Assembly (NCBI GenBank): GCA_023150835.1
Contig: JAKLKB010000087.1
Location: forward strand, 1 to 28,635
DNA: 28,635 nt
Reading direction: 5' to 3'
Origin: Myxococcota bacterium
GTDB taxonomy: Bacteria > Myxococcota_C > UBA6777
Part shown: positions 4,118-28,446 of the stretch, in pieces
Position numbering within the stretch: the stretch's first letter is position 1
Layout of the letters: every line of letters starts with the position of its first letter
Translations under genes and position numbers: made by a program
Notes under the pieces: generated by a model
What the model saw: only the letters and a program-made list of their open reading frames with translations
Told to the model about the DNA's origin: nothing
Databases searched by the model: none

Positions 4118-5305
4118 CTAGTGGGCTACATGGAGTAGAGAGGTTCCGCCTTGAACGAAGGTGGGGTGGGTTTGGGGCCGTTGGCTGGTGGCTGGGGTGG
4201 CCTCTGCGGCAGGCGTGGGTCGTTTGATAATAAAGAGGACGCCGCCTGTAATGGCTGCTGCGGCGGCGATGCCGATGAAAACGTTGGCCATGATCGCGCT
4301 GGTTCGGCCAGAATCTTCGATCGGTTGGATGTCTTTTTTGTAGTTGATGGGGGTGGTTTGGCTTGCTTGGAGTTTTTGGCTGACATCGCTTTGTTTGTTG
4401 GAAGCATCTACCCCAAAACCGATCACGCCCGCAACGGACACAACGGCGACTCCCACCGCGATCCATGCCCAAAAGCGGGGGTCTTGAACGAGAGGCACCT
4501 TGGGTTCTTTTTGGGTTGCGGCTTTGGCAAGCGCTAATTTCTTTTTCTTTTCGGCCTCGGCGTCAGCGGCTTTTTTCGCAGCTTCGGCGTCGGCAGCTTT
4601 TTTCGCAGCCTCAGCGTCGGCAGCTTTTTTCGCAGCTTCCGCAGCAGCGGCTTTTTTAGCGGCTTCGGCGTCAGCGGCTTTTTTCGCAGCTTCGGCTTCG
4701 GCAGCTTTTTTCGCAGCCTCAGCGTCAGCGGTCTTTTTGATGGCGTCTGTATCGGCAGCGGCTTTTTTAGCGGCTTCGGCGTCAGCGGCTTTTTTCGCAG
4801 CTTCGGCGTCAGCAGCTTTTTTCGCAGTATCATCGGCCTTTGCGACAGTTGGAGCAGGAGCATCGCCAAACAGCTTGTTTGCGAGTTCGGTGTGTGCCGA
4901 TTTGGCTTGATTTTTCTTAAAGAGATGGACGACTTCTTTGACGTTCTTGCCGGTTTGGGAGTCGATCTGTCGGAAGAGAGCGCGAACACGCGATCCAGCG
5001 GGGAAGATGCGGATATGGAAGAGCCAGCGGGCTTGGCGCATGGTGCCGATCTTGTTCATGCAATCGGGGGTGTCGCCGATACATCCAAGCGTTAATCGCG
5101 CCATCGAGATATCCATCGGATTCTGCGGCAACAACTTGAATTGTTTTCGCTTCCCGATGGCCTTTCGCATATTTTTGGTCAACGTCTTTGCGATGTTGGT
5201 GGGGGCTCCTTCTGCGCCGAGAAAATCGGCTGTTTCTTGGGCTTGGGCTGGAGCCGCCCACAACAACACACATCCCAACACAACACACCATAACCATCGA
5301 TTCAT
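4118..5305 (-). CDS. Exported TolA-like Ala/Lys-repeat protein with two membrane segments
   Basis: A 395-residue protein. A signal peptide (1-22, cleavage near AQA/QE) leads into a small domain (about 25-147) with a Cys pair at 75 and 82 (LGCIGDTPDCMNKIG). This resembles periplasmic proteins of delta-group bacteria that define their own weakly conserved domain. Residues 162-255 are about ten copies of a nine-residue KKAADAEAA unit, expected to form a long charged alpha-helix like TolA domain II. Two hydrophobic segments follow (about 279-300 and 336-360), then a Pro/Thr-rich tail. The helix could span the periplasm, but the order helix-then-membrane is reversed relative to TolA, and I claim only architectural likeness. 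It is a single-gene unit facing the esterase gene across a divergent region. Confidence 0.85.
   Translation of the reverse strand: MNRWLWCVVLGCVLLWAAPAQAQETADFLGAEGAPTNIAKTLTKNMRKAIGKRKQFKLLPQNPMDISMARLTLGCIGDTPDCMNKIGTMRQARWLFHIRIFPAGSRVRALFRQIDSQTGKNVKEVVHLFKKNQAKSAHTELANKLFGDAPAPTVAKADDTAKKAADAEAAKKAADAEAAKKAAADTDAIKKTADAEAAKKAAEAEAAKKAADAEAAKKAAAAEAAKKAADAEAAKKAADAEAAKKAADAEAEKKKKLALAKAATQKEPKVPLVQDPRFWAWIAVGVAVVSVAGVIGFGVDASNKQSDVSQKLQASQTTPINYKKDIQPIEDSGRTSAIMANVFIGIAAAAAITGGVLFIIKRPTPAAEATPATSQRPQTHPTFVQGGTSLLHVAH
4541..4822 (-). repeat. 27 bp in-gene minisatellite encoding KKAADAEAA
   Basis: About ten tandem 27 bp units lie inside the TolA-like gene. Most translate to KKAADAEAA; one unit has a one-residue insertion (KKAAADTDAI), and others vary at the Asp/Glu/Ala position. 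High DNA similarity between units makes the copy number likely to vary by slippage without breaking the frame. Confidence 0.9.
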
Positions 5306-11436: not shown

Positions 11437-11477
11437 GACAGCGAATCGCACCAACTCTTGCGATACCAGACGCCCGT

Positions 11478-11767
11478 TGCGTAATCGTCAAAATGTAGGG
11501 GCAGCCCCCTGTTGCTGCCCAACCGTCGGGCAATTTGCGTAATCGTCAAAATGTAGGGGCAGCCCCCTGTTGCTGCCCAACCATCGGGCAATTTGCGTAA
11601 TCGTCAAAATGTAGGGGCAGCCCCCTGTTGCTGCCCAACCATCGGGCAATTTGCGTAATCGTCAAAACGTAGGGGCAGCCCCCTGTTGCTGCCCAACCAT
11701 CGGGCAATTTGCGTAATCGTCAAAACGTAGGGGCAGCCCCCTGTGGCTGCCCAACCATCGGGCGTCT
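11478..11767 (+). repeat. Five tandem 58 bp units built on hairpin family C
   Basis: Units start at 11478, 11536, 11594, 11652 and 11710. Each reads TGCGTAATCGTCAAAA, then GTAGGGGCAGCCCCCTG, then TGCTGCCCAACCATCGGGCA. Each unit can fold two hairpins, GGGCAGC/GCTGCCC and GCCC/GGGC. Units differ by single bases only, so expansion is recent. The array fills the gap between convergent genes (serA and the receiver protein), a place where structured RNA ends could terminate both transcripts. There are no unique spacers, so it is not CRISPR. Confidence 0.93.
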
Positions 11768-11807: not shown

Positions 11808-13937
11808 TTAACCCAAACGGGCGCTGTGTTCGAGCAGTTCTTGGGTTTCTTGGAAAAGCTCGGCTGCGTTTTTGTGCTTGGCATCAAGGCTGACATAGAC
11901 GCGATCAAGTGATATCTTGAAGCTCTGTCCGTGCTTTCCAATAAATTGGATCTGCGAAAAGTCTTGTTCGATGCGTTGGAGTGTTGCGGAGATCAGAGCA
12001 GGGGGGAGGGTGGGGATCAACACAGCCAGCGTGCATGTGTCCAGACGCGCAGCGATCGAAAAGGGCGGTGCGTGGTGCGTGAGCGAGTGCGCCAAGTGGA
12101 CGAGGACTTGGGCGCGCAAGACATAGCCGTGTTGTTCTGCGAGGGCTTCCCATCCGACGGGCCGAAGCAAACAAAGATGCAGCGGATTTTGCTTGATCTT
12201 GCTTTCTGTCACCCGCCGCTCAAGGCGATCCAAAAACAGACCCCGAGACCAGAGGTGGGTGAGGACATCTCGATAGCGGGTGCGGCTGATCTGACGGGCT
12301 GCTTGGAGGTGCATCTGCACTTGGGCGGTGATCTCTTCGTGCGGCTGTTGTTGTGTAATCACGGCATAGATGCCCGTTTGAAAAGCAGAGATCCGCAACG
12401 CTGGAGCGAGCGACGGAGCCAACAAAAGCACAGGCAGATCGCCCCATCGCGGGTTGATCCGCAAGACGCGGCACAGATCGAGGCCGCTAAATCCGCGTAA
12501 AGAGAAACCGACCATTAGCAGATCAGGTTCTTGAGCTTCGAGCGCTTCGAGCAGTTCAAGCGGAGAGAGCAGATGTTCGACCGAAAAGCCGCTTTCTTCG
12601 AGTGCTTGGGACACGAGTTCGGAAAATCCCGTCTCATCGTGTACCACAAGAATTCGCGCACTGTACGCGGCTTGGTGGCCTGTCATCCGACGTAGCGCAT
12701 CGAGCCATGCGTGTTCTTGAAGCGGCTTGATCAGCAGTTGGGAGGGGGTGATCTGAGCCGCCATCATTCGGTGATGGATCTCGGCTTGATCGGTGACGAA
12801 CATCACAGGGATACGATCCATCTCAGGCCGCTGACGGAGCTTTTGCACCCAACTGACGCCGTTTTGGATCGCCGCCGTTTGTTGGCGCATCGATAAGGGC
12901 GCATCTTGAGCATTCTTGGAGGCTGGGGTGCTGACATCCACATAAAAAGCATCGAAAGCGTAGCGCGTAAGCAGCCGCTCGATCGTTTCCCAGCTTTCGC
13001 CTGCGTGCAGTTTGATCCGATGGCGGTTCGCCCAAAAGGCCATCTCTCCGACATCTTCGAGGCGTTTTCCGATCAACAGCAGATTGAAGTACTCGCCCTG
13101 TGACTCATCGCCTCCGACGGTCTGTTCTTCGGCGGGCTGTTGAGCTTGGACAAGACACCACTCCAGACGATCTTGAAGGTAGGTCCAAGGGTTTTGGGAG
13201 ATCACTTCGGGAGATGAAGCGAGAAATTCTTTGGGATTGAGCAACAGATACAAGCCGCGTTCGATCTGTCCGAGCACTTCGCTGATCGCGTGCAGCTGCA
13301 ACATCCCTGCGCGGCTATGGAGTTGTTGGATATCTCGGTGGGTTTGAAAAAGGATCGCCAGTTGGTTTGTATCCCGATACACCCGCGAGACTTGTTCGAG
13401 GGCTTGGTAAAGTTTGTCTTCGAGTTCGGGGAAAAACGCAGCGCGGGCTTTTTCGAGCTGAGAGGCGGCTTCGGATGTAGCGTGTGGAAGGGCTTGTTGG
13501 AAGGTGGGGATCGCATCAAGCGTTGGATGGACGCTGATCTCTCCATCGGTGCGCTCGTTACTCCCGAGCGGAGCGAGGTATTCGACGTACATCAAGAGTT
13601 CGTCGATGTTGATTGGTTTGCTGAGGATCTTGTAGACACCGAGTTCTCTGGTCAACATCGCAAGCAAGGTTTGATTGCGTGTGAGGACAGACAACGCGGA
13701 CACAAACAGGATCGGGCTTTGATATCCGCGCCGTCGGATCTCTCGGATCAGATCAGGGCCGATCATCTCGGGTAGCTGGCCTTCTATCAACAGCAGATCG
13801 ATCCGCTGTCGAGCGAGCAGGGCAAGGGCTTTGGAAGGCGTGGAGGCTGTGTACGTCGAATATCCTCGCTGTTGCAGGGTTTCTGTAATCAAATCGCAAA
13901 AGCCCTGATCCACATCGACCACAAGAACTGAGCGCAT
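11808..13937 (-). CDS. Multi-receiver HPt-like protein with degenerate GGDEF domain
   Basis: A 709-residue cytoplasmic signalling protein. Receiver 1 (1-122) keeps VVDVD and Lys107, but the phospho-acceptor position is Glu52 (LLLIEGQLP). A helical region (about 155-235) contains LHSRAGML (His207), resembling a histidine phosphotransfer motif. Receiver-like domain 2 (about 284-418) has an Asp at 334 (FYVDVSTP). Receiver 3 (427-545) starts VVHDE but has Gly at the acceptor position (LLMVGFSL). The end (552-705) has the GGDEF-domain opening DVLTHLWSRGLFLDRL, yet the active-site loop reads RLDTCTL (631-637) instead of RxGGDEF, so it should not make cyclic-di-GMP. The ATG at 13937 has AAGGA upstream. 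Role: probably a protein-interaction or non-catalytic signalling hub. Inference. Confidence 0.87.
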   Translation of the reverse strand: MRSVLVVDVDQGFCDLITETLQQRGYSTYTASTPSKALALLARQRIDLLLIEGQLPEMIGPDLIREIRRRGYQSPILFVSALSVLTRNQTLLAMLTRELGVYKILSKPINIDELLMYVEYLAPLGSNERTDGEISVHPTLDAIPTFQQALPHATSEAASQLEKARAAFFPELEDKLYQALEQVSRVYRDTNQLAILFQTHRDIQQLHSRAGMLQLHAISEVLGQIERGLYLLLNPKEFLASSPEVISQNPWTYLQDRLEWCLVQAQQPAEEQTVGGDESQGEYFNLLLIGKRLEDVGEMAFWANRHRIKLHAGESWETIERLLTRYAFDAFYVDVSTPASKNAQDAPLSMRQQTAAIQNGVSWVQKLRQRPEMDRIPVMFVTDQAEIHHRMMAAQITPSQLLIKPLQEHAWLDALRRMTGHQAAYSARILVVHDETGFSELVSQALEESGFSVEHLLSPLELLEALEAQEPDLLMVGFSLRGFSGLDLCRVLRINPRWGDLPVLLLAPSLAPALRISAFQTGIYAVITQQQPHEEITAQVQMHLQAARQISRTRYRDVLTHLWSRGLFLDRLERRVTESKIKQNPLHLCLLRPVGWEALAEQHGYVLRAQVLVHLAHSLTHHAPPFSIAARLDTCTLAVLIPTLPPALISATLQRIEQDFSQIQFIGKHGQSFKISLDRVYVSLDAKHKNAAELFQETQELLEHSARLG

Positions 13938-14010
13938 GAAAAGATCCTTGTTGGGCAAAAAGAATGAACCAACCCAGTTAGAATAGGACTTACGCAGTTG
14001 GGCTTATTTT

Positions 14011-14482: not shown

Positions 14483-14605
14483 GGGAGCGAGTTTTGCCGC
14501 CCTCGTCTCTTCTGCTGCGCAAGATCGTCGGGCAGCCACAGGGCTAACACTCGGACACTTCGTCTATTCTCATAGAGCCACCGAATGTTTGTCATCAAAT
14601 CAGGG

Positions 14606-14802
14606 ACAAGCTCAAGTCAAGTGGGGACAAGCTCAAGTCAAGCGGGGACAAGCTCAAGTCAAGCGGGGACAAGCTCAAGTCAAGTGGGGACAAGCTCAAG
14701 TCAAGTGGGGACAAGCTCAAGTCAAGTGGGGACAAGCTCAAGTCAAGTGGGGACAAGCTCAAGTCAAGTGGGGACAAGCTCAAGTCAAGTGGGGACAAGC
14801 TC
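14606..14802 (+). repeat. Nine-unit 21 bp minisatellite
   Basis: Units of 21 bp starting ACAAGCTCAAGTCAAGTGGG begin at 14606 and repeat every 21 bp to 14794, with a partial tenth. Two units (the second and third) differ by one base (CAAGCG instead of CAAGTG). Because 21 is a multiple of three, all frames stay open, which explains the apparent ORFs such as PLDLSLS repeats on minus. No coding signal is visible. Confidence 0.95.
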
Positions 14803-14909: not shown

Positions 14910-14929
14910 GGGCGGTTCGCGAACCGCCC
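14910..14929 (+). repeat. Perfect 20 bp palindrome, variant of hairpin family C
   Basis: GGGCGGTTCGCGAACCGCCC is its own reverse complement. It sits after GATGTAG, exactly where family C elements elsewhere carry the GGGCAGC...GCTGCCC stem, and is followed by GATTCTTGGGCAGC as in the neighbouring units. Confidence 0.9.
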
Positions 14930-14954
14930 GATTCTTGGGCAGCGAACCGCCCGA

Positions 14955-15123
14955 TTCTTGGGCAGCCACAGGGGGCTGCCCCTACACTTTCCAACAGGTT
15001 AGCATGGTCGCCCCTTGCAACTATTCTTGGGCAGCCACAGGGGGCTGCCCCTACACTTTCCAACAGGTTAGCATGGTCGCCCCTTGCAACTATTCTTGGG
15101 CAGCCACAGGGGGCTGCCCCTAC
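14955..15123 (-). repeat. 69 bp tandem array of hairpin family C, two and a half units
   Basis: Units start at 14955, 15024 and 15093. Each has TTCTTGGGCAGCCACAGGGG, then GCTGCCCCTACAC, then a non-hairpin spacer (TTTCCAACAGGTTAGCATGG and following) that is nearly the same in both complete units. Orientation is opposite to the 58 bp array at 11478. The spacer differs entirely from the spacer of that array. Confidence 0.9.
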
Positions 15124-15159
15124 ACCTTTACGCACGCAACGGGCGGATCTCGTTATGGC

Positions 15160-20695: not shown

Positions 20696-20976
20696 GATGC
20701 GGCGATCCCAAGAAAAGTCCACGGAAAACGGAAGAATTTGGATCTTGTTGTGGATGGGGTGGGGGGACACCTTGCGTACAACGAAGGATTCGATGAGGAT
20801 ACATGGGCTGAAGAAAAGAAAATATGCACGCGGCCCAAGCAAGCAAGATGCGTCGCAAGGATGCCGCCATGTCACCGTAGCCTGCGAGGATCGCGGGCCG
20901 CAGCTTGAAAGCCAGAGCGAGACGGACAGGTTTTGAGCGATCCAAGACACCAACCGTTCGAGGATGGGAGAGTTCG

Positions 20977-23900
20977 ATGACGAAACAGAGCGAGAACGTG
21001 ATCTCTGGTGGAATAAACGAAAAAGCCCACATCGAAAACGAACGGTGGGAGTTGTTGCGGCAGGGGAAGATCTCGCTGTTTGCGGAGACGATGGCTTGGG
21101 TGGAGGCTTGGCGCACAAGCGAAGCGTCCGAAGACCGATTGCGCGAGCGTTTGGAGGCTTGGCTGGCATCTTGTTTTCGTGAAGGTTTGCTCCTAGACGA
21201 AGCTCAACAATTTGAACTGCAAGCAAGTTTGTTGCGGATGTTGGCTCCAAAACCTGTCTCGGATGCTTTGATAAGCCACCTTGATACGGCTGCATCGGTC
21301 TCGAAAACATCGGAGGTTGGGGCATCTGCATCGGTCTCGCAGACATCGGAGGTTGGGGCATCTTCCTCGATGGCGCAGATGTCGGATGTTGGGGCATCTG
21401 CATCGGTCTCGCAGACATCGGATGTTGGGGCATCTTCCTCGATGGCGCAGACATCGGAGATTGGGGCGTCGGCGTCTGCGCAAGATGGGGATGTTGTGGT
21501 GTTTCCGATGGTGCCTTATGAGGAAGAGGTGTCTGCGCCTGCTGCGACGGAGATTCGGGCATCGGTGGCGTCGTTGGCATCGGAAGCCGTGTCAGGTTTC
21601 AAAGAGGATGTGGCGAAGCTACCTGTCTTTGCAAAGCAGGTGGCCTCGGAAGGCTCGGTCGCATCAGAGGGTTTAGCGGTATCGAGTGCAGAGACAGCGG
21701 ATGTTGCGAAGGTTCCTGCGTCGCAAGATGTATCACAAGCCGCATCGAGAGAGCCTGCGGTGGGGTTGCCGACGGGTGGGCCGATTGCGTCGTCGTTGTA
21801 CGCGCCGCCTCAAGGTCGGATGCCTGTGGGTGAGTCCTCGAAGCAGGGCAGTAAAAAGGCAAAAGGGGCGAAGACCTCGGAGAGTCGAGGGGGGCGATCT
21901 GGGCTGGGGGCGTCAGAGGAAGGCGAGAAAGGGGCGTCGTTGTCGGATGTATTGCCTGAAGGGGCGAGCGATGCGTCAGATTTAACGGAACTGCCGGATC
22001 TTTCATGGCAGGAGAGGCGCAGTCGAGAAGATCGAGCGGTGATGGAGGCATCGAGTTGGGCGCGAGTGTTGCAGCCGTTTTTGGCGCAGAACTGGTTGTA
22101 TTTTTTGGGGACGTTTCTGGTGTTGGCGAGCGGGTTTTATTTGCTTTCGTTGGCATGGGAGGGGATGAGTACGTTAGGACGGCAGGCGGTGATTTGGGGG
22201 AGTTTGGCGACAGGTTCGTTGGCTTTTTCGGGGCTGGGTGTGTTGTTGAAGCAGCGGGCTGAATTGCAGGTGGCGGGGCGGAGTTTTGGAGCGGTGAGTT
22301 TGGGGTTGTTGGGGATCGCGGGGATGGCGGTGGGTCCGTTGTGGTCATCGAGTCTGCCTGTGGCGATCGGTGTCATGGGCGGTACGCTGGGTGTGTTGGT
22401 GTGGGGGTTGGGTTGGTTGCGTGCGATGGATGCGGGACCGACGATCAAGTTGTCGACGATCTCTTCGGGGGTGTTGTTAGGAGGGGTGATCTTTGTGCCG
22501 TGGTTTGGGCGGTTGGGGCATATCTGGGGTGTGGTGGGTGTGTTGTCGTTGGGGACGTTGTTTTTTTGGGGTGTGGTGCGGGTGTGGGGAGCGTTGCGTT
22601 TTGGGGTGTTGAATTGGGGAGAGGTGTGGTGTTTTTGGCGGGAGCAAGGGGGATTTGATCGTGTACGAGCAGCAGAAGGGCAAGAGCAGCCGTTGACGGC
22701 GCAAGAGATGTTGTTTTTCTTTTTGCCGCAGGCGTATTTGTGGTTGTTGTTGGTGGGTTGGTCGGGATGGTCGTTGGGGGGGGAGTTGTGGTTGGCGTTG
22801 CCGTATATGGCACCGTTGTGTGGGGTGGTGGGTTTTGCGATGGTGGAGATAGGGGAGTGGGTGAGGTTGATCGAGAGGGGAGAGAAGAAAGCGAGATCGA
22901 AGTTGCAGCAGAAGGCGTTGCGCGTGGAAGATGCGGGGGACGAAGGGTTTTTTGTGTGGTTTTGGTTGGGTGCGTTGGTGGTTGCGGTAGGGGTGGTGCA
23001 AGCGTGGGGGACGCCGATATCGTTGGTATGGGGTGCGTGGTTGTTGGGGGTGTTGTTTGCGCGGGGTTCGGATGTGCGGGCGCGTTGGAGCTTGGAGGCG
23101 CTGAGTGCGCTGAGTGGTGTGGTGGGATATGTGGCACTGTTGGGGGTGTTGTTTGCGTCGTCGGAGCTTTCGGAGCGATGGATGCGGGAGGTGTGGTGGT
23201 TGCCGATGCAGGCGTGGTGGATATTGCCTGCGGGAGTGTGTTTGGTGGTGGTGGGACGGAGGGTGCGAGAACAGCGAGAGATGCGGGGTCAGGTGTGGCC
23301 GTTGTTGGGGGCGTTGTTGGCGGTGTATGGGGTGGGTGTGTTGTTGGTGAACGACGTGTTGAGAGGGCAGGGGCAAGTCTCGTTGGGGATGTTGTTGGCG
23401 ATGCCTTTGTATGCGTTGGGATTTTTGTATGTGGGTGAGTTGCGAGAGAAAAAGTCGTGGAGCCGGTTGGGGTTGGTGTTATGGGTGTATGGGAGTGCGG
23501 TGATCGGGGGTCGTGTTTTTTCGTGGGGTGTTTTTTCGGGAGGGACGGAAGATCGGGCGTCGTGGTCGTTGTTGGTATTTGTGGCGACGGCGGCGTTGTT
23601 GTGGGGGGTGAGTCGTGTGTTCGAGAGACGTGCGTTGTTGCCGCACAGTCGATTTGTGTTGGATGAGGCGTTGTTGTGGCTGCCGTTGGTGTTGTTGTTT
23701 TTTTGGGCGCAGCAGCCCGATGCGATGGGGTTGTCGAACCCGTGGGGATGGCACCCACGAACAGCGTTTGTGTGGGGTGCGGTGGGGTTGTGGTTGTACG
23801 GGGCGTTTTTTTTCTGGTGGTCGTATGCGAGCCATTCGGCGGGGATGGCGCGTTGGACGTTGGTGTGGTGGGGATTGGCGAGCGTGTTGTTGTCGGTGTC

Positions 23901-26900
23901 GGTGCGCCGCTGGCTTGGTTTGCCGTTAGGCCAAGGGGGCGGCGCGTTGGTGGTGATGTGTGTGAGTTTTGTGTTGTTTGAGTTGGGGATGCGCTGGCGG
24001 GGAGGATCGAGAGCGAAGGGAAAGTGGTTGCGGCTGCCTTGGGTGGTTGGAGGAGACGGTGCGTTGTTTGCGGGGGGAGTAGGGATCACAGAAGGAGCGC
24101 AGGGAGGCGGGCAAAGGGGAGAGTTGAAGCATGGGGTTGCGGAGATCGCGGAGGATGGGGGTGTGTGGAGCAGGCCGTTGTTGGAGGCGGCGTATGTGGC
24201 TTGGTTGGTGGGTTTGTTGATGTTGTTTCGGGTGGTGGGTCGTGGGATAGAGGGGCGGGGGTTGGCGTTGGCGGTGTTGTGTTTGGGGGTGGTATTTGCG
24301 TGGCAGGTGGCGTGGCGTCATCAGTCCGAAGCGATGGGGCTTGTGGGGTTTGTGTTGAGTGGTGCGGCGTGGAGTGTGGCGTGGTTGTGGCCGCATCTGT
24401 TGGGTGCGCAGATGGAGCAGCCGCGTGTGTGGTGGGGCGTGTTGGGGATCGCGGGAGGTTTTTGGGCGGCGTGGTCGGTGGTGTTGTGGGGGGTGTATGG
24501 TTGGAAGGGGAGGATCGATGAAAGAGGCGATTGGAAGGGGGTTTTGCAGATTGCTATCGAGATCTTGCCGTTGTTTGGGATGATCTGGATGGTGGGGTTG
24601 GGGTATTTGACGGTGCGGGCGATCAAGGAGAGCGGGGGAGTGTCGGTGGGATGGTTGTTTGCGGGATGGGGTGGGAGTGCGTTGTTGTGGTATGGGATGG
24701 CGTGGGTGATGCGGCGTTGGTTGTGGGTGTGGTTGGGTGCGTCGTCGCTGTTGGTGTGTTGGGTGTTGCCGTGGTGGAATGGGCTGTCGTGGCCGGGATT
24801 GTTGGTGTGTGCGATGGGGGGAGTGTTGGTGTTGTTTGCGTTGGGTTCATGGGGAGGATGGAAGCGCAAAACAGCGGATATTGGGGTGCTGTTGGAGTCG
24901 GGGCAGGCTTGGTTGAAGGTACGTTCGGCGGGGGCGGAGTTGTGGGGAGAGGGTCTTCGTGTGTACGGGCTGGCGTGGTGTTTGTTGTCTTTGCCGGGGC
25001 TGTGGTGGTTTTGGCGTGAAGGCTGGATGGCGGGAGGACTGGCGGGTTTGGGTTTGGGGATGTCGATCTTGCCGATGTTTTGGGAAGGTTGGCAAGGGTC
25101 AGGATCGTCTTTGAATCCCCTCAGTTACGGGTGGTTTGGTTTGTCGTTGTTTGCGGCGGGGGTGGGTTGTACGGTGGGATTGTTTGGGGCGTTGCCGGGA
25201 TCGTGGCAGCCTGTGGGAGTGTGGTTGTGGCTGTCGTCGTTTGGTGTGGTGAGTAGCTGGGTGGCGTTGTTTGTGATGTTGTGCGTGGGGTTGCGAGATC
25301 GGCGGTCGTTGCGGCTGGATTGGGTGTCTCGTCGTTGGGGGATGTGTTCTCAGGGGCAGCCGGAAGAAGGGGTGGGATGGGGTTGGTTGCATCTGGGTCA
25401 GGTGAGTGAGTGGATGTTTGTGGGGGCGGCGAGTGTGGGGGCGGTGTGTTTTGGGATGGCGTGGTGGGGAGATCGCGCAGCATCGGTGTGGTTGTTGTGG
25501 AGTGTGTTGCCGTGGGTGGCCTCGGTCTGGTTGCGGCCACGAGAGGTGACGGCGACGGTGGTGGGTGGGATGATGTTGTGGGGTTGGTGGTGGGGAGCGG
25601 CGACGGGATGGGCTGTGTGGGCGGTGGTGTGGAGTACGTTGTTGCCGTTGTGGTTGGTGGGTTCTTCGTATTGGCGAGAAAAGCCGTTGTCGCAACTCAA
25701 TGAATCGGTCGGATGGACGGGGATCTTGGGTGGAATGTCGTTTGGTGTGGGGGTGGTGTCTGTGTTGGCGGGGATCTGGCCGTCTTTGGGGTCGGCGTGG
25801 TTGGGGTGTGTGGGTAGTCTTGGGGTGGCGACGTTGTATCAGGTGGGGATGTGGATCGCACGGTGGCAAGGGGGCCGATTGGAGCCGTTGTTTGAGATGG
25901 TTGCGTGGGGACGAGCCTCTGAAGACGAAGGCCACGCGGGGCGTTGGGGTACGGCGTGGCAAAGTCTGCGAGATCTGTACAAGACGGCGATGGTGGTGGG
26001 GAGTGGTTTTGCGTTGTGGTGGTTGTGGTTGAGTTGGCCGAACGGTGGGGTGGTGTTGGCGTTGTTTTTAGTGCCAGCGTTGTTGGATGTGGGCCAATCC
26101 TTCCAGCGATTTTCTTGGACGTGGATGATGATGGCGTTGTCGCTGTGGGGGCTGCATTTTGTGCCGTACTGGATGCAAAAAGAAAGCTGGTCGGTGTGGT
26201 TGTGGTCGGTGTGGGCGCTGGGCGCGTTGTGGTTGGCGGCGGAGTCGACGGCGGCGGCGCTGTGGCATGGTCTGCGTGAACGTGGGTCGCTGCGGATGGT
26301 GTGGGCGCTTTGGCATATTCGGGGGCTGAGTGCCTCGATGTCGCTGTTTTTTGCGGGGTGTGGGATCTTGTTGTATGCGGCGCTGTTGGCGGGGTTTGTG
26401 TTGGAGCCGATCGGTTATCCGCTGGAAGTCTCGGTGTATTGGTTAAAAGATGCGCGGGCGTTGCCTTGGTGGATCTGGTTGTTGGTTCCTGTGTTGTATG
26501 CGGTGATGGTGTTTCAACTGCGGCGGCGCAGTGCGTTGTTTTGGGCGGAGGGAGCGATCTTTTTGTCGCCGTTGGTGATGGGGGCGGTGTTGGGAGGGCG
26601 TTCTTGGAGGGCGTTGGCGGTGGAGTGTGCGGTGGGGGTGTGGTTGTTGATCTTGGGTGGGTTGTTGTGGTGGGTGCGTGCGCAAGGTGCGCGGATGCGT
26701 GAGCAGGCGTGGGGGGACGGGCAGAATAACGCGAATTCCTCGGAGCGTGCAGATGTTTTGGAGGAGGCGGCGGAGGCTTGGACACCGACGTCGATCTATC
26801 GGTTGTATTACAAAGAGGGCGCGGAGCCTGCTTGGTTGAGAGAGCTGACGGCGTTTGCGTCGGGGTTGGAGGGGGCTTCTGCGCGGATGTTGGAGCAAAG

Positions 26901-28446
26901 GCTGTGGGTGTTTTTGTGGGAGCTTCCGTTGCTGGGAGCGTTGTGGTTGGGGGCGCGGAATGGGATTGCGCGATTGGGCGGATTGATGGGGGCTTTGGGG
27001 TTGGGAGTGATGTTTGCGTTTGTGCCGGCCTCGATCTCTGTGGGGGGAGGGGGTTTTTGGGGCGTTTGTTTGTTGTGTGTGGGGTCGGCGGTGTTTGTGC
27101 GAGTGCGCCCGTGGCGGTCGTTGTGGGCGCTTGGTGCGGCGGTGTTTGGGTTGATGGTGTTTGGTGGGCTGTGGGATGGGTTGTTTGGTGCGGGACCGTT
27201 GGCGATGGGTGGGATTCTTGGGATGGGTCTGGTGTGTTGTGTGTTGGCGGCGTGGTGGCTGCGTGCATCGCAGTTGTATTGGTCGGTGGATAGGGACGGA
27301 TGGCGATATGGTTCGCGTGTCGAGAGCTTTTTACGGATCGCGGTGCGGGGTAGGATGTGGCACCCGGGCAGGGGGCCGCAGGCGTGGGATGGTGCGGAAG
27401 GTGCGGAGCGATGGGAGGATCGCAACCTGCCGTTGGTGCAAAAGGGGTATCGTGCGTTGGGATTCAACTCTTTTGTGCTGTTGTGGTTGGCGTGGGGGAT
27501 GTTTTGGATCGCGTCTGCGCGTTTGGGTTCGGGTTCGCCGTTGCTGCTGCATGGGATGGCGGTGTTGTTGTTGTTGATGCAGTCGTGGCTGTGGGTGGGA
27601 TGGGCGTTGGAGCGTGATCGCGATTGGATGGCGTATGTGGGGTTTGCGTCATTTTTGGGGGTGTATGGGTATCTGCGCAGCGTGATGGAGATCGGCGAGC
27701 GGGGGTTGGATGCGTGGGTGTTTTTGGTGGTGGGGTTTGTGCTGTTGGGATTCCGTGAGCTATGGCAGCGGATGGGGGGGCGTTTGTTGCAGCGCGTTGC
27801 GCAGCGGATCTCGTATGTGTTGCCGTTGTTGGCGTTGTTGGCGGGGGTGTGGGGAGGAAAGACTCCACCGATCGCAAGCTGGCTGATCGCGGGTGTGTTT
27901 TATGGGATCTTGGCGCATCAGTATGGGCTGCGTTGGCTCGCGGTCCCTGCGTTGGGCTTTTTGAACGTGGGCATCTTCTTGTTTTTAGGCCAACAAGCGG
28001 TGTCTGCGGCGCAGTGGTACATCTTGCCGTTGGGCTTGTCGATGTTTGCGATCTCAGGGATCTTTGCGATGGATTTGGGCCACAAAGGGCGCAACTTCTT
28101 TCGCGTGGTCGGTGCGTTGGCGATCTATCTGACTTCGATGGTGCAGGTGTTGTCGTTTCGCAGCATTACGGACGTGCTGTTGTTGGCGGGGCTTGCGATC
28201 GTGGGCATGATCGCGGGGATCGCTTTGCAGATACGGTCCTTTTTGGTCCTTGGGCTGGGCTTTTTGGTGGCGGATATCGTGATCAACCTGTTTCGCATTG
28301 GAATCCAAGACCGAGTGATCGGGATGATCTTTTTGTTCTTAACAGGGATCTTGTTGCTTGCCGCAGCGGTGTTTTTTAACCTCAAGCGCGAAGCGATCTT
28401 GGCGCGCATTCGCGATTGGCAAGATCAGATGGCTTCTTGGGATTGA
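20977..28446 (+). CDS. Giant polytopic membrane protein (DUF2339/SCO7613-like), about 2489 residues
   Basis: The ATG at 20977 has GGGAG six bases upstream; a longer reading from TTG 20905 lacks support. Residues 1-370 are a soluble, presumably cytoplasmic region: a helical start, five 12-residue repeats (106-165) and Ser/Ala/Glu-rich disorder. From about 370 (FLAQNWLYFLGTFLVLASGF) to the end almost everything is hydrophobic and rich in Trp, Gly, Leu and Val. By spacing I estimate about 60 membrane helices, with charged linkers, for example near 26660-26900 and 27290-27460. The first helices and the final helical block resemble large bacterial membrane proteins such as DUF2339, DUF2157 or SCO7613-C-terminal families, which have no established function. 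The C-terminus is a short charged tail (LKREAILARIRDWQDQMASW). Leu is written mostly as TTG and Val as GTG. Function unknown; transport or envelope organisation would be guesses. Confidence 0.93.
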   Translation: MTKQSENVISGGINEKAHIENERWELLRQGKISLFAETMAWVEAWRTSEASEDRLRERLEAWLASCFREGLLLDEAQQFELQASLLRMLAPKPVSDALISHLDTAASVSKTSEVGASASVSQTSEVGASSSMAQMSDVGASASVSQTSDVGASSSMAQTSEIGASASAQDGDVVVFPMVPYEEEVSAPAATEIRASVASLASEAVSGFKEDVAKLPVFAKQVASEGSVASEGLAVSSAETADVAKVPASQDVSQAASREPAVGLPTGGPIASSLYAPPQGRMPVGESSKQGSKKAKGAKTSESRGGRSGLGASEEGEKGASLSDVLPEGASDASDLTELPDLSWQERRSREDRAVMEASSWARVLQPFLAQNWLYFLGTFLVLASGFYLLSLAWEGMSTLGRQAVIWGSLATGSLAFSGLGVLLKQRAELQVAGRSFGAVSLGLLGIAGMAVGPLWSSSLPVAIGVMGGTLGVLVWGLGWLRAMDAGPTIKLSTISSGVLLGGVIFVPWFGRLGHIWGVVGVLSLGTLFFWGVVRVWGALRFGVLNWGEVWCFWREQGGFDRVRAAEGQEQPLTAQEMLFFFLPQAYLWLLLVGWSGWSLGGELWLALPYMAPLCGVVGFAMVEIGEWVRLIERGEKKARSKLQQKALRVEDAGDEGFFVWFWLGALVVAVGVVQAWGTPISLVWGAWLLGVLFARGSDVRARWSLEALSALSGVVGYVALLGVLFASSELSERWMREVWWLPMQAWWILPAGVCLVVVGRRVREQREMRGQVWPLLGALLAVYGVGVLLVNDVLRGQGQVSLGMLLAMPLYALGFLYVGELREKKSWSRLGLVLWVYGSAVIGGRVFSWGVFSGGTEDRASWSLLVFVATAALLWGVSRVFERRALLPHSRFVLDEALLWLPLVLLFFWAQQPDAMGLSNPWGWHPRTAFVWGAVGLWLYGAFFFWWSYASHSAGMARWTLVWWGLASVLLSVSVRRWLGLPLGQGGGALVVMCVSFVLFELGMRWRGGSRAKGKWLRLPWVVGGDGALFAGGVGITEGAQGGGQRGELKHGVAEIAEDGGVWSRPLLEAAYVAWLVGLLMLFRVVGRGIEGRGLALAVLCLGVVFAWQVAWRHQSEAMGLVGFVLSGAAWSVAWLWPHLLGAQMEQPRVWWGVLGIAGGFWAAWSVVLWGVYGWKGRIDERGDWKGVLQIAIEILPLFGMIWMVGLGYLTVRAIKESGGVSVGWLFAGWGGSALLWYGMAWVMRRWLWVWLGASSLLVCWVLPWWNGLSWPGLLVCAMGGVLVLFALGSWGGWKRKTADIGVLLESGQAWLKVRSAGAELWGEGLRVYGLAWCLLSLPGLWWFWREGWMAGGLAGLGLGMSILPMFWEGWQGSGSSLNPLSYGWFGLSLFAAGVGCTVGLFGALPGSWQPVGVWLWLSSFGVVSSWVALFVMLCVGLRDRRSLRLDWVSRRWGMCSQGQPEEGVGWGWLHLGQVSEWMFVGAASVGAVCFGMAWWGDRAASVWLLWSVLPWVASVWLRPREVTATVVGGMMLWGWWWGAATGWAVWAVVWSTLLPLWLVGSSYWREKPLSQLNESVGWTGILGGMSFGVGVVSVLAGIWPSLGSAWLGCVGSLGVATLYQVGMWIARWQGGRLEPLFEMVAWGRASEDEGHAGRWGTAWQSLRDLYKTAMVVGSGFALWWLWLSWPNGGVVLALFLVPALLDVGQSFQRFSWTWMMMALSLWGLHFVPYWMQKESWSVWLWSVWALGALWLAAESTAAALWHGLRERGSLRMVWALWHIRGLSASMSLFFAGCGILLYAALLAGFVLEPIGYPLEVSVYWLKDARALPWWIWLLVPVLYAVMVFQLRRRSALFWAEGAIFLSPLVMGAVLGGRSWRALAVECAVGVWLLILGGLLWWVRAQGARMREQAWGDGQNNANSSERADVLEEAAEAWTPTSIYRLYYKEGAEPAWLRELTAFASGLEGASARMLEQRLWVFLWELPLLGALWLGARNGIARLGGLMGALGLGVMFAFVPASISVGGGGFWGVCLLCVGSAVFVRVRPWRSLWALGAAVFGLMVFGGLWDGLFGAGPLAMGGILGMGLVCCVLAAWWLRASQLYWSVDRDGWRYGSRVESFLRIAVRGRMWHPGRGPQAWDGAEGAERWEDRNLPLVQKGYRALGFNSFVLLWLAWGMFWIASARLGSGSPLLLHGMAVLLLLMQSWLWVGWALERDRDWMAYVGFASFLGVYGYLRSVMEIGERGLDAWVFLVVGFVLLGFRELWQRMGGRLLQRVAQRISYVLPLLALLAGVWGGKTPPIASWLIAGVFYGILAHQYGLRWLAVPALGFLNVGIFLFLGQQAVSAAQWYILPLGLSMFAISGIFAMDLGHKGRNFFRVVGALAIYLTSMVQVLSFRSITDVLLLAGLAIVGMIAGIALQIRSFLVLGLGFLVADIVINLFRIGIQDRVIGMIFLFLTGILLLAAAVFFNLKREAILARIRDWQDQMASWD
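21292..21471 (+). repeat. Five 36 bp in-gene repeats with 72 bp higher-order period
   Basis: Units begin at 21292, 21328, 21364, 21400 and 21436 and encode 12-residue copies of ASVSQTSEVGAS. Types alternate: ASVSQTS units and SSMAQTS units follow each other, so the real duplication step was probably 72 bp. They lie in the disordered N-terminal part of the giant membrane protein. Confidence 0.92.

Follow-up and report, generated by a model that had tools for sequence, protein, structure and literature searches.

The giant open frame and its integrity

The window analysed here is a stretch of 28,635 nucleotides from a Myxococcota bacterium (assembly GCA_023150835.1, contig JAKLKB010000087.1). 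On its plus strand, positions 20977..28446 encode a giant polytopic inner-membrane protein of 2489 residues, predicted to have about 62 transmembrane (TM) helices arranged as 31 hairpins, with both termini inside. The protein belongs, as a giant form, to a known but functionally dark superfamily, that of the SCO7613-type proteins, in line with an earlier interpretation of the letters alone (the sequence-only reading), which had given it no function.

Translation of 20977-28446 yields 2489 residues with zero internal stops. The open frame extends upstream of the ATG at 20977, with the first TTG at 20905, and a GGGAG-type ribosome site can be read in the sequence about 8 bases upstream of the ATG. 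At third codon positions the guanine plus cytosine (GC) content amounts to 0.59 for the low-complexity N-terminal part and to 0.68-0.75 from residue 300 onwards. As it stays coding-type throughout the membrane part, nothing points to a broken frame. The best homologue is a 2740-residue open frame in another genome of the same small phylum and family, a Deltaproteobacteria/Myxococcota metagenome assembly; it aligns collinearly over the whole length with 22-52% identity per 100-residue block. The full-length alignment scored +1312, whereas shuffled or reversed controls gave about -120 to -206.

A sequencing fusion had already been raised in the sequence-only reading, and an assembly or sequencing error joining two or more genes was considered as a possible artefact. 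The contig terminates in a tandem repeat just past the stop codon, which makes the assembly fragile there. However, the independent 2740-residue homologue aligns end to end, excluding a chimeric assembly or sequencing fusion, and dozens of relatives have open frames of 1200-2800 residues. We therefore reject the artefact, to which we give next to no chance; the open frame is a real, intact single gene, and the membrane protein claimed earlier exists as described. The repeat itself has a 41-base-pair (bp) unit in 4.4 copies with 97% matches, and the contig end (28455-28635) lies inside it, a few bases past the stop; it is probably the cause of the contig break. No plasmid copy of the giant gene was found.

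Membrane layout, family placement and conserved zones

Hydrophobicity alone gave 65 TM segments, the first of which lies in the disordered N-terminus and is probably false. A positive-inside model based on dynamic programming, which penalises lysine and arginine outside (a predictor written for this analysis, not published), gave 62 TM helices with both ends cytoplasmic, scoring 860 versus 746 for the N-out arrangement. Both counts bear out the earlier estimate of about 60 helices. In this model the 31 inside loops have a mean length of 21.8 residues with 4.0 lysines or arginines each, and the 31 outside loops a mean of 5.6 residues with 0.9. The same predictor gave an even helix number in 49 of 53 relatives as well. 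The predicted layout is thus a cytoplasmic N-terminal tail of 370 residues, about 31 hairpins and a short cytoplasmic C-terminal tail; hardly any of the protein would reach into the periplasm. AlphaFold2 models of the C-terminal domain and the first TM block, each built from three sequences, gave no usable fold (mean predicted local distance difference test scores of 47.4 and 47.9).

The last 310 residues alone matched the NCBIfam model SCO7613_CTERM (NF047321) with E=1.9e-10, over residues 2302-2481 and model positions 5-183 of 188, in agreement with the SCO7613-type character assumed earlier. The scores of 40.7 and 43.1 bits fall under the curated naming cut-off of 45; therefore, the protein is best regarded as a divergent SCO7613_CTERM relative and not as a formal member. 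Another relative, P0003, clears the cut-off with 49 bits. The model matches 36 of the 53 family members (best 1.3e-69), among them a relative of 809 residues (1.7e-69). Similar to the SCO7613_CTERM proteins, the window protein carries the C-terminal 180 residues at the same protein end, whereas it is about three times as long as the 809-residue member. Its placement as a giant relative of SCO7613-type proteins is strongly supported by these comparisons. Searches of Pfam, PADLOC and PDB sequences with the full protein returned nothing significant, and profiles made from the alignments of the C-terminus and of the first block had no match in the PDB. Weak NCBIfam matches of the LpxD type were rejected, being low-complexity and located in the N-terminal repeat.

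An alignment of 54 family sequences defines three conserved zones, all on the plus strand. The first is an N-terminal cytoplasmic helical motif (residues 51-95, 21127..21261) with W62 and G70-L71, conserved across the family. It is followed by 36-bp (12-residue) tandem repeats at 21290..21467 (4.9 copies of a unit like SVSQTSEVGASA), which lie in the disordered cytoplasmic linker and correspond to the length-variable N-terminal repeats seen in the sequence-only reading. The second zone is the first TM block (residues 362-520, 22060..22536), a DUF2157-like bookend, conserved in the alignment over residues about 362-480 with W373, G378 and W394, which in profile-profile comparison matches the start of the DUF2339 TM region. 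The third is the C-terminal TM domain (residues 2180-2489, 27514..28443), conserved in the alignment over residues about 2250-2489, with the SCO7613_CTERM match at 27880-28419 and with P2283, R2376, G2414, R2420, G2426, G2457 and W2488 at columns conserved to at least 90%. Between the bookends lies a variable middle of about 1660 residues (22537..27513) made of TM hairpins with cytoplasmic loops rich in lysine and arginine, for which no alignment was possible between distant subfamilies.

Profile-profile comparison of the window pair against a relative subfamily recovered the three zones in order (E=7.7e-6, 5e-13 and 3e-24), and the 1600 residues between the bookends gave nothing significant; in the hhalign comparison with the G051-phylum profile, a top row with a nonsensical alignment length was left out. 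Since the three zones alone align, the giant size stems from a freely varying middle between fixed bookends. The profiles show the bookends, namely the DUF2157-like first block with the N-terminal motif on one side and the C-terminal domain with its predicted R-x-R-type cytoplasmic loop on the other, flanking a variable hairpin stack.

Fusion or repeated duplication of a DUF2339/SCO7613-type unit had been suggested as the origin of this size. The parts resembling DUF2339 or SCO7613 are two, the first TM block and the last domain; each occurs a single time and at the corresponding protein end, and a fusion of DUF2339 units is not supported. As to repeated duplication, the window pair showed no internal repeat above the reversed control, the N-terminal linker excepted. 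What stands of it is a weak long-range self-similarity in the deepest relative profile, that of the G051 phylum (21 sequences), where an off-diagonal self-match that spans 674 columns and is shifted by about 170-200 has E=7.4e-7 (reversed, 8e-3). This match weakly supports an old internal duplication, in that distant subfamily only. An offset match in the subfamily myxoB (1.1e-5) was discounted, as its reversed control (4e-5) was hardly worse.

Scanned with the profile of the C-terminal domain, 12 out of a broad set of 386 genomes proved to hold members. Members are present in 90 of 195 genomes of the G032 phylum, where many genomes of family f29 hold two copies of about 1700 and 1800-2300 residues, and in 43 of 194 genomes of the G051 phylum, mostly with 1200-1660 residues. 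The relatives span 809-2788 residues and several phyla, the 2788-residue open frame coming from genome G774. Within the window's own phylum two of five genomes have the gene, and two of the three without a match are less than 90% complete. A homology scan of the genome collection named two loci only. Proteins of more than 2000 residues occur in several separate branches of the C-terminal tree, a tree made by a quick method with weak deep support. The rarity claimed for bacterial polytopic proteins of this size may hold for bacteria at large, but within the family 1200-2800 residues is the rule.

Some of these features would fit a membrane-state sensor or scaffold, in which the tension or composition of the bilayer is sensed by the TM stack, while the cytoplasmic N-terminus, with a zinc ribbon in many relatives and a long linker in the window protein, signals or recruits soluble partners. 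Pfam DUF2157 (PF09925), described as a LiaF-type sensory domain (PMC11237479), matches the first block in 26 of 52 family members (best 8.4e-7), and one member matches LiaF-TM. In addition, of the 31 relatives that fall outside the G051-type set, about 22 carry paired CxxC motifs, a zinc-ribbon signature, at the N-terminus; the helical motif follows the zinc ribbon in many relatives, and P0003 has a Pfam double zinc ribbon match below the cut-off. DUF2157 spans a single block of the window protein, and this block is itself unmatched by any Pfam family. Against a sensor, the 2489-residue protein has no CxxC motif or zinc-ribbon cysteines, the relative loci share no signalling gene beside it, be it a response regulator, PspA or another, and some 30 variable hairpins would be left unexplained. 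We consider a sensor or scaffold role rather unlikely.

Neighbouring genes and repeats of the window

The other recognised genes of the window are ordinary ones and encode the exonuclease VII large subunit, RadC, a 2-hydroxyacid dehydrogenase, a three-receiver/GGDEF protein, a GH31 glycosidase and a flavoprotein disulfide reductase. Among the relative loci compared, no neighbour recurred beyond close kin, and the neighbourhood comparison advised in the sequence-only reading thus returned no conserved partner. The giant gene is probably a stand-alone unit. In the sister species no clear orthologue of the gene neighbouring the giant gene was found.

The three-receiver/GGDEF protein (11808-13955) has three receiver stretches of the response-regulator type and carries a GGDEF domain at its C-terminus. 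At 279-1778 lies a 499-residue protein with a C-terminal Tll0287-like domain and an unexplained N-terminal part. A 27-bp tandem repeat (4557-4827, 9.9 copies) is located within a low-complexity open frame of 394 residues (4118-5302, minus strand). Highly regular tandem arrays are found at 11477-11763 (58 bp x 4.9), 14603-14802 (21 bp x 9.5) and 14919-15125 (69 bp x 2.5), and the 58-bp and 69-bp units share a palindrome-like core, GGGCAGCC...GGCTGCCC, as in a dispersed repeat element.

Relation to Arc3A and a possible role in the membrane

Arc3A, of the Pseudomonas antagonism-resistance cluster 3, is a DUF2339 protein (PF10101) with 35 predicted TM segments that blocks the build-up of lysophosphatidylethanolamine and monolysocardiolipin when the phospholipase Tle3 attacks; it can be complemented by divergent homologues, and the regeneration of phosphatidylethanolamine from lysophosphatidylethanolamine is not done by Arc3A itself (PMC8926400). 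A second group confirmed the protection with other lipase effectors (PMC12663445).

DUF2339 proteins collected from 17 loci were compared with the family by hhalign. The first TM segment of DUF2339 matched the first TM block of all family members with 6.4e-6 (reversed control 0.28), and three full-length subfamilies taken separately gave 1.5e-4, 1.5e-7 and 1.6e-5 (reversed, 7e-3 or worse). All these matches fall at the same place, where the TM region of DUF2339 begins. For the C-terminal domain, the DUF2339 C-terminus was the best match, yet with 7.8e-4 (reversed, 0.027-0.033) a weaker one than that of the first block; in the genome scan, the family C-terminal profile hit one DUF2339 protein at its C-terminus with 1.4e-5. 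Homology to DUF2339 thus appears well supported at the first TM block and probable at the C-terminus, and the remote relation to DUF2339 suspected earlier is upheld. By these comparisons the superfamily is shown to comprise the SCO7613-type and the DUF2157-like proteins and, at the profile-profile level, DUF2339 with Arc3A. Similar to Arc3A, the window protein is large and polytopic, with large but variable numbers of TM segments and no enzyme signature; the first TM blocks of the two are homologous by profile-profile comparison, and so, probably, are the hairpins at the C-terminus. Unlike Arc3A, it has 62 predicted TM helices instead of 35, a SCO7613-type C-terminus and no arc3B or aas partner.

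Based on the remote homology to Arc3A and the prediction that nearly the whole protein lies in the membrane, we infer that it may act on the lipid bilayer itself, and tentatively propose, as a possibility somewhat short of even, a stand-alone, Arc3A-like inner-membrane protein that protects or maintains membrane lipids. It would reside in the inner membrane, exposing almost no part to the periplasm, and would remove or sequester lysophospholipids or other damaged lipids, or prevent their build-up, guarding the membrane against phospholipases encountered in predation, competition or the turnover of lipids. Contact with the lipids would fall to the hairpin stack as the body of the protein, while the conserved ends would serve as assembly or gating parts, and the protein would work alone, without an operon partner.

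Several points weigh against this proposal. The link to DUF2339 is remote, and its C-terminal part is weak (E=7.8e-4). Pfam DUF2339 finds no match in the window protein or in its own genome; at E<=0.001 there was no DUF2339 in G000 or its sister G001. The mechanism of Arc3A is undescribed, so that the transfer of function spans a long distance. The giant gene has no aas, arc3B or lipase gene as a neighbour. Separate true DUF2339 proteins of about 1270-1400 residues exist in G002, G003 and G004 of the same family (L181 at G003:C71:54000-60000, L179 and L180), and another genome of the phylum has both the giant gene and a separate true DUF2339 protein; therefore, the two may have different jobs.

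For the SCO7613-type proteins a single experiment was found, which also bears on the question: the sole knock-out of SCO7613 lowered the polyhydroxyalkanoate content, and lysolipids were outside that study, whose authors doubt a synthase role and raise glycerol transport as a question (PMC8313934). This result, together with the polytopic nature of the protein, could point to transport of a small molecule or precursor such as glycerol, by a transporter or a channel. However, no solved transporter was matched by sequence or profile, and the middle varies in length and sequence, unlike a transport core. We regard transport as improbable.

Beyond the proposed lipid protection by the window protein, the DUF2157-like, SCO7613 and DUF2339/Arc3A proteins might form one hairpin-stack superfamily whose length grows between fixed bookends, its giants, often two paralogues in large-genome Myxococcota-type bacteria, being a general machine of lipid-damage protection with an undescribed mechanism; this wider view is more doubtful. 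As Arc3A, a polytopic protein of the superfamily, defends against phospholipase toxins, the SCO7613-type link would carry the question of its mechanism to several phyla. The family also shows how bacterial membrane proteins can grow beyond 60 predicted TM helices, with the ends fixed and the middle variable. One experimentally studied remote relative makes the function of the giant protein testable, and the conserved R2376, R2420 and W2488 offer residues that could be mutated to test lipid protection.
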